From positions 124,001 through 188,000 of the forward strand of contig CAKTTY010000002.1 in the NCBI GenBank assembly GCA_934617065.1: 64,000 nt of DNA, given 5' to 3'. The notes below the pieces were generated by a model, which worked only from the letters and a program-made list of their open reading frames with translations, was not told the origin of the DNA and did not search any database. Each line of letters starts with the position of its first letter. Position 1 is the first letter of the stretch. Shown here in pieces: positions 13,308-62,427 of this stretch. The stretch is from an uncultured Eggerthellaceae bacterium. GTDB taxonomy: Bacteria > Actinomycetota > Coriobacteriia > Coriobacteriales > Eggerthellaceae. Made by a program: the position numbers and the translations under genes.

Positions 13308-13655
13308 TACGTTCCTTATATTTCCTTGTATGATCGCAATTCAACATTGCTTTTTTGTAACATTCGGGGGTCGTATTTGACCAATTGTTAACAATGCTAC
13401 CCTACGTGCGCCCTTCAAATGATTGCAAACTGGACGCTTTCAATAATTTCCTGCTATTTGGCTTGTTTTGCCCATCGTTTCTCTTCATATGTTGCATTTT
13501 CAGTCGGACTAGCGCGGGATCTTTGCCAAGGGCGGAGGGCACGAGTGCTTGCGGGGTTGATGCCTCAGGGTTCCGTGCTGCCGCTCGACCTGATCGGCAT
13601 TGAGGGTGCGCGCGTCTTTCGCAAAAATATGCTTCGTTACGACGATCCGTCTCGC

Positions 13656-13842
13656 AAAAACAAAAATTTCGACTTTTGTGCAACTTTTTTGCGATTACGG
13701 ACTCCCTTCCGTCCTCTGCAAGGCGGAAATGGGCCGCCGTGCGTCCGATTTGCCGCTTTTTCGGGCTTCAATCCGCGTTTTGACGCTCCGCGACAATTCG
13801 CAATCGCAAAAAAGTTGCAATTTCGGGCGTATTTCTGTTTTT
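13656..13842 (+). repeat. Dispersed terminal-inverted-repeat element, copy A
   Basis: About 187 bp with imperfect 41-bp terminal inverted repeats. The inner 16 bp (CAACTTTTTTGCGATT at 13681-13696 against its exact complement at 13802-13817) match perfectly and the outer ends read AAAAACA. The interior resembles copy C in the same orientation (GGCGGAAATGGGCCGC) and copy B in reverse (ACGGACTCCCTTCCGTCC). No target-site duplication was recognised. The frame that starts at AAAACAAAAAT on the plus strand is open across the whole element, as in the other two copies. Confidence 0.85.
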
Positions 13843-13945
13843 GGGCACCCGGATTGGCCCCATGCTGGTGTCGCGGGCGGGGTGTCCCTGGCGCAGCGCC
13901 TTTGTGGACGACTTTGGGCAGCGCTGTGGGCGGGGCGGGCTTGCG

Positions 13946-13996
13946 GGATGTGCCTGGCGTGCGATGCGGGGGATGCTCCTGGCGGTGCGATGCGGG
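13946..13996 (+). repeat. Imperfect tandem duplication, unit about 25 bp
   Basis: Two adjacent units, 13946-13970 and 13971-13996, share the pattern GGATG-N2-CCTGGC-GTGCGATGCGGG with a few substitutions and a one-base insertion. It sits about 100 bases right of repeat copy A in GC-rich non-coding DNA. Confidence 0.7.
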
Positions 13997-14363
13997 CGGA
14001 GGGAAGGCCCGGAAGACGTGATGCTGCGGATGGAGCGCACCCAGCGCAGCTCCATGGGTGGCTGAATCAACTCCGCGAGGCGGCACCTAGAACAGCGCTA
14101 CGGGATGGCGTAAGAAGTATTGCCGTTGCCTGCGTCCTCCCATGAGGGCAGGCTCATTTGCTGGGTGGAATATTGGCGCTTTGCCCACTTTGCTCGATAT
14201 TATTCGCTTGCCGCATCTGCGGGCGCTCTTGCCCTCATCCCATCGCAGCGCCAGCTGCACTGCGGTATCATGATAAGAACTGTTTCAAAAGAGCTTTGAA
14301 GTGCATTTTGCGTTCAAAACAAGCAGGAAAAGGCACCCAGCATAATAAAGAAGGGTAGGATTC

Positions 14364-26692: not shown

Positions 26693-26764
26693 ATGAAGCC
26701 GCTTACGATGCTACGCTGGGTCCGCCCTGACCAAATTGTCATCCCGAAGCTATTCCGAGAGTCC

Positions 26765-26950
26765 AGAAACATAAATCTCGACTTTTTTGCAACTTTTTTG
26801 CGATTAGGGATTGTTCCGAGCTTTCCAACCAGGGATTGAGGCGCAAAAGCGCAGGTAATCGGTTGCATGACGGCCTGTTTTCGCTTTGTGGGGACGGAAG
26901 AGAGTCCGTAATCGCAAAAAAGTTGCAAAAACGCCTCAATTTTTGTTTTC
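26765..26950 (-). repeat. Dispersed terminal-inverted-repeat element, copy B (inverted)
   Basis: About 186 bp with the same terminal arms as copies A and C: TTTTTTGCAACTTTTTTGCGATTA at the left (whose complement is at the right, 26908-26929) and GAAAACAAAAATT as the outer right end. Reading the minus strand, the interior matches copy A closely (ATTACGGACTCTCTTCCGTCC, then GCGCTTTTGCGC), so this copy is in the opposite orientation. The same frame is open from GTG at 26952 (minus) to beyond the other end. Confidence 0.87.
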
Positions 26951-27125
26951 ACGATGGGTGGATTGCCCCAACGGGTAGATATCGCAATGGGGTCGGGTGC
27001 GCAGGTCTTTGCTCATCAGGCTTTATTTCATTTCTGTTTCGAAAATATCCAGACTCTGTGACGATGCGAAATTAATCGGTGTTGAACAATTGCAACTTTT
27101 GCTGAAAGGACGAATATAGAGCCAT

Positions 27126-61478: not shown

Positions 61479-61758
61479 GCCCCGCCATCGTTGCTGGGGG
61501 CCGTGTGGGTTTTTGCGGGGGTCTGCTCCGCTGTCGTTGCAGGTGGCGCGCCCTGCGCCTTTCACTGAGTCTGTCCTGTCGGCCTCGCTGGGACTTGTGT
61601 GTTTCTCGTGCTCTGCCCCGCCGCCGTTGCTGGGACCCTGTGCCTTTCGCAGATTCTGCACTGTTGGCCTTGCTGGCTCATGTGGTTTTGCCTTCTTGCT
61701 TGGTGGTCTGCTCTTTTGCCCTCGCTAGGGGAGTCCACGCGTTTTTCGTAGGGTCTTG
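61479..61758 (+). repeat. Degenerate tandem repeat array, about six units of 42-52 bp
   Basis: Units end in TCTG (the last in TCTTG): 61479-61525, 61526-61573, 61574-61615, 61616-61658, 61659-61710, 61711-61758. A shared core reads approximately CCGCCGTCGTTGCTGGG, then CC-x-TGTG, a TTT run, and TCTG. Units 1 and 4 are the most alike. The array is directly followed by dispersed repeat copy C. It is poor in A on the plus strand. Confidence 0.7.
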
Positions 61759-61784
61759 TTCCTGTCGTAGTGATCTGCCCGTTG

Positions 61785-61973
61785 TGAAAACAAAAATCTC
61801 GCTCTTTTTGCAACCTTTTTGTGATTGCGGATCCTTGTCTACCCCCAAAGGGCGGAAATGGACCGCTAAACAAAGAATATTGCTGCGCTTTTGCAGCGTT
61901 ATTGGCATTCAAGAGTCTCGCAACAATCCGCAATCGCAAAAAAGTTGCAGAAAACCCGGAATTTTTGTTTTCA
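61785..61973 (+). repeat. Dispersed terminal-inverted-repeat element, copy C (best preserved)
   Basis: About 189 bp with 53-bp terminal inverted repeats, TGAAAACAAAAATCTCG at the left and its near-complement at 61957-61973, continuing inward to GTGATTGCGGAT and ATCCGCAATCGC. Interior blocks shared with A and B are GGCGGAAATGGACCGC and TGCGCTTTTGCAGC. The frame from GTG 61784 is open through the whole element and stops at TGA just past the right end. Confidence 0.9.
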
Positions 61974-62230
61974 GTCTCCCGGGATGACTTCTGGGTAGTG
62001 CTTTGGGTGGGGTGGGGCGACTCGGCTGTGGCACGCGCATCGTCGGGAAGTTCAGCAAAGTGAGGCTATGGGAAAAGTGGGCCATAGGACAAAAAGCGTG
62101 CCTGGCTGGTTTGTCGCACACCCATAGGGCAGTTTAGGGTAGGGCCCGGAATGGCCCTAAGAGTCAAAATGGCCCGAGACGCACTTTTGCTCTATAGCTC
62201 GTACTTTTTAACTTGCTAGCCAGAAAACAA

Positions 62231-62257: not shown

Positions 62258-62267
62258 GAACACTTGG

Positions 62268-62341
62268 TAGCCTCGATCGGATTCGAACCGACGATCTCCG
62301 CCTTGAGAGGGCGGCGTCCTAAACCGCTAGACGACGAGGCC
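62268..62341 (-). tRNA. tRNA-Glu(CUC)
   Basis: Reading the minus strand, the acceptor stem GGCCTCG pairs with CGAGGCT (first pair G-U), the T loop is GGTTCGAATCC, and the anticodon loop CTCTCAA between CCGCC and GGCGG gives anticodon CTC for glutamate GAG codons. The length is 74 bases with discriminator A; CCA is not encoded. Confidence 0.95.
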
Positions 62342-62356
62342 ATGAGCGCATATTGG

Positions 62357-62427
62357 CTGGGGTGGAAGGAGTCGAACCCTCACATACGGTACCAGAAACC
62401 GCTGTCCTACCATTAGACGACACCCCA
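62357..62427 (-). tRNA. tRNA-Gln(CUG)
   Basis: On the minus strand the acceptor stem TGGGGTG pairs with CACCCCA, discriminator G. The anticodon loop TTCTGGT gives CTG, reading CAG (glutamine). The T arm is AGGGTTCGACTCCT. It is 15 bases upstream of tRNA-Glu and probably cotranscribed with it. Confidence 0.95.

Follow-up and report, generated by a model that had tools for sequence, protein, structure and literature searches.

Helically phased three-site palindromic elements in Eggerthella and a candidate member family in a 64-kb stretch of Eggerthellaceae DNA

Palindromic elements of several families and species carry three helically phased sites, and from family to family their arms change in matched pairs. 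The 187-bp repeats that occur three times in the 64-kb stretch of DNA analysed here (the window) are candidate members of this group, their membership being the weakest link in the argument. From the observed architecture we infer mobility and protein bridging, and the explanation we favour, at a little short of an even chance, is a non-autonomous, MITE-like element in which proteins connect three sites along the same face of the DNA. Searches of the literature, covering open-licence PMC papers, gave no description of these elements.

The window copies and their family in the nearest genome

All three copies reported in an earlier note were confirmed, namely A (13655-13843, forward strand), B (26764-26951, reverse strand) and C (61785-61973, forward strand). 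The inner arm said to be common to them is a 19-bp sequence, TTGCAACTTTTTTGCGATT, that constitutes exactly both arms of each copy. At up to three mismatches it occurs six times in the window, whereas 100 dinucleotide shuffles average 0.03 occurrences and never exceed 1, which leaves chance no room. The interiors, all in a single orientation, can be aligned with few gaps, in agreement with the earlier description, and the outer ends are shared to the extent that an outer shell is present in A, B, and C, but copy A starts with CAAAAAC rather than GAAAAC. The gene-free setting also holds, as each copy occupies a long interval between protein genes (1056, 909, and 1381 bp for A, B, and C, respectively, by a home-made gene caller), the gap of copy C additionally containing two tRNA genes (62265-62427).

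It is the inner core, TGCAAC...GTTGCA, that is homologous to elements of other genera, the remainder of the 187 bp being the outer shell (GAAAACAAAAAT) of the window/G001 family, which adds ∼24 bp to each end of the core (table 1). Weakly similar degenerate repeats extend beyond the 187 bp on both sides. On the left flank of copy C, additional HMM matches extending back to 61459 are non-significant (E about 2-3). GC-rich degenerate repeats are found on both sides of the cores in this family (window 61717-61784 and 13844-13917; L084 and L092), the left units differing from the right, with a unit length of ∼35-45 bp judged by eye and a number that varies per copy.

Table 1. Positions of the palindromic elements and their parts (window coordinates unless a locus is given)
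Feature	Position	Strand	Remarks
Copy A, TG...CA core	13679..13819	+	141 bp; best centre match only 9/13, offset 68
Copy A, outer shell	13655..13678	+	
Copy A, outer shell	13820..13843	-	
Copy A, surroundings (core and right flank)	13645..14166	.	6 bases instead in G001
Copy B, TG...CA core	26788..26927	-	140 bp; orthologue G001:C7:92315-92505
Copy B, central site TACCTGCGCTTTT	26845..26857	-	10/13, offset 70
Copy B, outer shell	26764..26787	-	
Copy B, outer shell	26928..26951	-	
Copy C, TG...CA core	61809..61949	+	141 bp; orthologue G001:C7:55455-55645
Copy C, left arm	61809..61832	+	
Copy C, right arm, inverted	61926..61949	-	
Copy C, central site TTGCTGCGCTTTT	61880..61892	+	weak match, 8/13, offset 71
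Copy C, left outer shell TGAAAACAAAAAT...	61785..61808	+	seen in window/G001 family
Copy C, right outer shell	61950..61973	-	
Copy C, left degenerate repeat flank	61717..61782	+	HMM match, E 1.5e-7
Copy C, right degenerate repeat flank	61976..62049	+	HMM match, E 1.4e-7
Second G001 palindrome family	L098:5996-6127		
Second G001 palindrome family	L098:8552-8683		
Second G001 palindrome family	L077:3432-3561		
Second G001 palindrome family	L094:7633-7773		
Second G001 palindrome family	L089:6919-6980		

The window is collinear with contig C7 of its nearest genome, an Eggerthella-like MAG (G001), in reversed orientation and at about 90-95% identity; orthologues of B and C are present there and A is absent. 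A covariance model was built from 17 copies aligned over their whole length (14 from G001 and the three of the window), and the family thereby grew from the three copies of the earlier note to 20 places in G001, comprising 17 at full length and three that are diverged or partial. Nor was a match to a known family found: Rfam gave none for the window at gathering scores or for three loci up to E 0.1, and the phage and plasmid sets contained no match to the elements. The outcomes that the earlier note named as refuting it thus did not occur. Overall identity among the G001 copies is mostly about 70%, the arms being nearly invariant, and additional remnants carry internal deletions. The most alike pair in G001, at 95% identity, consists of C3:7916 and the orthologue of B, two loci that also have about 40 and 145 bp of flank in common beyond the 187-bp unit.

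Searched over 59 relatives and 138 genomes of the family, the covariance model gave only weak matches outside G001, in five genomes; these belong to other genera and are palindromes with other arms, through which a wider superfamily was recognised. Three distant congeners, ∼70-73% identical in most matched genes, yielded zero matches. In the empty-site comparison with G002-G004, genes that are neighbours in the window have matches that lie apart or, for the most part, are ∼70-73% identical. The exact 19-mer arm is found in 26 stretches of GTDB genome contigs, 19 of them in G001, with L055 outside that genome showing one arm only (by eye), and in two stretches of viral contigs, neither of which has a paired arm (by eye).

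In 6/22 scanned G001 stretches (L077, L082, L083, L085, L090, and L094) an element or remnant has a tRNA gene no farther than about 0.4 kb away, and in five of these six the element is on the 3′ side of the tRNA gene. On contigs C1, C4, C12, and C14 of G001 elements sit near contig ends, as if the assembly had been broken by repeats. G001 also contains a second palindrome family (GGGAATATAGGGACAGGTCCC...; table 1), mostly of about 130 bp, with three TG-ended copies spanning 130-132 bp and the central motif described below (11/13) at position 51 in one copy.

Shared anatomy and helical phasing

Equivalent elements in Eggerthella lenta DSM 2243 (G094) and its congener G035 have different arms and the same anatomy, which consists of TG...CA ends, inverted arms of ∼24 bp, and a central site near GACCWGGBGTTTT. 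Both TG and CA are present in 38/41 of the G094 and G035 elements. G035 has a family of its own (13 copies used; arms TGGCAAGTTTTTTCGCGATTGCGG) whose interiors have the central motif in common (its eighth letter was scored as C, G, or T, hence B), and a de novo palindrome scan revealed several arm subfamilies in the single genome of E. lenta, one of which (subfamily a) has TGCAACTTTTT in its arms in common with the window/G001 family. De novo scans of 400 kb each recovered only two palindromes in G003 and one in G004. At one orthologous gap G035 and G094 have elements with similar centres and different arms; at a second (L226/L275) the elements are again different-armed, with centres that are not clearly alike. 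Within copies of the G035 family the left and right arms match each other at 292/312 bases versus 281.1 expected (permutation p = 0.005; p = 0.016 without one near-duplicate). The arm matching is weaker for G001 and the window together (p = 0.02, rising to 0.07 once orthologues and the duplicate are removed), in a test from which three G001 places, diverged or partial, were omitted.

The central site scores at least 11/13 in 24/37 G035 and G094 elements versus 6/740 shuffled interiors, and its distance from the TG end is mostly 39, 49-50, 59-61, 71, 81-82, 91-92, or 102 bp. Centre positions at scores of at least 11 give R = 0.967 in 13 classes, and admitting scores of 10 adds the off-phase positions 53 and 77 and brings R down to 0.793. 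On the cleaned list R is 0.95 in 18 classes, a value reached by 0/20,000 random sets, with the omission of L139 (77), g (53), L207:19526 (92), and three centres scoring below 10 (81, 72, and 26). A motif-plus-arms scan made 24 matches in 800 kb of the 3.63 Mb of G094 versus 3 and 7 with control motifs, 6 in G035 versus 0 and 2, and 7 in G001 versus 4 and 1. When all G094 scan matches are kept, R is 0.556 for lengths and 0.722 for centres, lower values that we attribute to the 4/24 matches that look spurious, as does 1/6 in G035.

Element lengths are phased as well, clustering at 120, 130, 141, 151, 162, 172, and 183 bp, that is, in steps of one helical turn; the window cores (140-141 bp) fit this phase, and lengths in G001 hardly vary (139-141 bp). 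Ends were assigned by a single rule, the outermost TG followed by G or C and mirrored in the other arm, and values were collapsed into classes. By this rule the G035 and G094 palindromes fall into 27 classes with R = 0.76 at 10.5 bp (p ∼1.7e-7), and all genomes, G001 added, into 36 classes with R = 0.776 (p ∼4e-10, best period 10.35), in a set that keeps chance and off-phase palindromes (e.g., 93, 101, 149, and 176 bp). The cleaned list gives R = 0.891 in 23 classes with a best period of 10.5-10.6, again equalled by 0/20,000 random sets, and steps within subfamilies of 10.2-12 bp. In this list values within 3 bp were merged, so that the one off-phase copy, of 149 bp, was averaged with 151. Matches likely to be due to chance, coding, or without a usable end were excluded, comprising nine palindromes (L205:3412, L266:7561, L202:15467, L207:7251, L208:418, L208:4924, L211:8954, L216:12936, and L225:4955) and the motif-plus-arms matches L213 (two), L214, L267:3467, and L219, as was copy L200:19492, whose arms need a gap. 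The classes are not fully independent.

Whole-turn spacing of the sites is thus observed, mainly in Eggerthella. Insertions and deletions between the sites amount to whole turns of ∼10.5 bp, which keeps all three sites facing the same side of the helix. That subfamilies differing in their arms maintain this phase points to double-stranded DNA bound by protein and argues against an RNA gene. In the window/G001 family the equivalent of the centre is ACCTGCGCTTTT at 69-71, which scores 10-11 of 13 there in 8/20 copies; the other 12/20 have a lower score or their best centre position elsewhere. Given this weak centre match, the assignment of the family to the superfamily relies mainly on arms, TG...CA ends, and length.

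Two further loci were noted in the scanned genomes. At L100:1490-1720 (G154) one pair of GCACCGTTTTTTCGATTGTGGC arms encloses another, giving nested palindromes, and L237:344-525 (G003, a true congener) spans 182 with the centre GACCTGGGCTTTT at 91 and partly diverged arms, the latter being the single match of a G003 scan that did no better than its control counts of 1 and 0.

Mobile element or chromosomal site

Under the explanation that we favour, each copy would present three putative protein sites, a terminal arm of ∼24 bp starting from TG, an asymmetric centre, and an inverted arm ending in CA. Proteins on both arms and the centre may draw the 120-184 bp together as a compact loop, and in this folded complex the element could be copied or mobilised by trans-acting machinery. 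We envisage that the arms are replaced over time as a matched pair while the central site is retained, and that the window/G001 family is a branch with an additional outer shell bordered on either side by degenerate repeats.

The elements are short, non-coding, and dispersed and have terminal inverted repeats, as is typical of MITEs. Of the options raised earlier, a MITE-like element is supported by the TG/CA ends, by flanks that are unalike (not above the 99% null level) in 118/128 same-subfamily pairs, and by presence/absence at orthologous gaps (copy A and L135, where the edges are not exact, and L275:6579). Copy A is missing from its orthologous place in G001 (table 1), and the edges of the difference are off the TG/CA core, so that insertion and deletion both fit. 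Flank similarity exceeds the 99% null level in the remaining 10/128 pairs, strongly in four, so some copies owe their origin to duplications that reached past the element. The absence of a target duplication noted for the window extends to the 41 G094 and G035 elements, in which the longest direct repeat at the edges is 2 bp, as by chance. Searches for a gene enclosed by arms up to 6 kb apart, covering 800 kb of G094, 394 kb of G035, and 434 kb of G001, found no such pair and hence no mobilising enzyme; the arms in the DNA searched occur as short pairs or as singles, several of the latter being elements with one diverged arm. With neither a target duplication nor, in the DNA searched, an autonomous partner found, the status of a plain MITE is unproven.

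The main rival, which we consider unlikely though deserving of serious attention, holds that the elements are host sites for chromosome architecture or regulation, with arms and centre binding nucleoid or segregation proteins and copies kept in place by selection. This would agree with the near invariance of the arms in G001, set against the overall divergence of the copies, and with the retention of B and C in both species, but differences between the B and C orthologues amount to 6/96 in the arms versus 20/186 in the interiors, such that the arms are not clearly slower. The several arm types within one genome and the different arms in sister species also argue against this rival. The rival draws further support from the surroundings of the elements in E. 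lenta, where parS is present in 13/28 element-bearing gaps versus 5.75 in length-matched gaps (p = 0.0014; p = 0.003-0.025 in three restricted versions), 12/31 elements lie within 150 bp of parS, and convergent gaps are enriched among element-bearing gaps (11/28 versus 47/285, p = 0.008). In G035, 4/13 copies are within 150 bp of parS. The association is real in Eggerthella and not general, as a parS-like site is near only one copy in the G001 DNA searched and the window has none. Part of the link may moreover reflect shared duplication, since L258 and L269:7192, both near parS, have a common flank. The elements may thus be chromosome-organising palindromes, as proposed in the earlier note, the association with parS being seen in Eggerthella and in one case in G001.

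At up to one mismatch, parS sites (TGTTTCACGTGAAACA) number 155 in E. lenta, 113 in G035, and 9 in G001, versus 0 for a reversed-pattern control. There is usually a handful of parS sites per genome, and the Eggerthella counts are far above this. L258:8952 and L269:7192 of G094 have nearly the whole of a 40-bp flank in common and are both near a parS site, as if element and parS had been co-copied.

A more speculative reading, to which we give a small share of our confidence, is that of a new class of phase-locked three-site loops organising the Eggerthellaceae chromosome, in Eggerthella jointly with its unusually numerous parS sites; the arms of these loops would co-evolve with a fast-changing binding protein and be pair-swapped at fixed places. 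If true, such chromosome-organising loops would be a bacterial counterpart of rapidly turning-over centromere and hotspot motifs.

Structured RNA, also among the earlier suggestions, fares considerably worse. A family of structured RNAs or transcription terminators would be in keeping with the long hairpin that the elements could form, with the outer A-runs and T-runs of the window family, which look like terminator tails by eye, and with the frequent position of elements behind gene ends. Against it stand the lack of Rfam matches reported above, an element orientation that looks independent of neighbouring genes (by eye), and length steps equal to the DNA helical repeat, which are unexpected for RNA and persist across different-armed subfamilies, leaving this reading very improbable.

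Slightly less probable still are REPINs moved by RAYT, a Y1 tyrosine transposase, via a single-stranded hairpin. The elements are REPIN-like in their conserved inverted ends, less conserved spacer, intergenic location, and matched arms (the G035 permutation test above), but single-stranded hairpins are not expected to give helical phasing. The Y1_Tnp domain (PF01797) was not found in G001 (80% complete), G024 (98%), G094 (100%), or G035 (99%), which makes RAYT-driven REPINs unlikely. We therefore rejected this candidate, which is largely refuted in E. lenta. The same result extends the earlier failure to attach a transposase to the family, as Y1/RAYT is missing from G001, E. lenta, and G035. 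G154 has two Y1_Tnp. Finally, an invertible DNA switch using the arms as recombination sites is barely credible: the inverted arms are close and in phase, as we infer a recombinase would need, but B and C have kept their orientation, as has the L136/L207 pair, and no promoter-like centre was noticed.

Comparison with known repeat elements

If the phased, protein-bridged interpretation is right, some small bacterial palindromic repeats are phased nucleoprotein modules and not just hairpins or dead transposon scraps, with a code that can be seen in their arms, their centre, and their whole numbers of helical turns. Since E. lenta DSM 2243 is cultured and has a closed genome, the binding proteins, mobility, and the ParB link are directly testable.

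Among known elements, the Correia/NEMIS repeats of Neisseria are MITEs of ∼107 and ∼155 bp with an IHF site in the longer form, and are listed with TA ends and a target duplication (PMC2229807). They resemble the present elements in being short inverted-repeat elements with an internal protein site (for IHF, in the longer Correia form), and differ in that here we find TG...CA ends in most elements (38/41), no duplication, one centre combined with several types of arm, and helical-turn lengths. A REPIN carries a GTAG- or CGTC-tagged palindromic REP at each end. REPINs, known from Pseudomonas and others, have two conserved inverted ends, a less conserved spacer, and compensatory changes (PMC3116915). 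Inverted conserved ends around a variable spacer are found here too, but the elements have no RAYT in the four key genomes and possess a conserved centre and phasing.

The BIME-1/RIP elements of E. coli comprise inverted repeats flanking a bending-protein site. The present elements differ in that they fall into several families, their lengths are phased, and to the eye their arms do not resemble REPs. ERIC (127 bp) and RUP (107 bp) are dispersed inverted-repeat elements (PMC2229807); here there is no TA target and no helper IS was identified. Inversions in E. lenta have been described at inverted repeats of 16 and 39 bp with no recombinase gene beside the breakpoints, the 39-bp repeat being ascribed to an IS1595-family transposase (PMC13174815). 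The repeat sequences quoted there are unlike the arms found here, a comparison made by eye only. Set beside these systems, the elements are more structured than a plain MITE, and the phasing is the surprising result.
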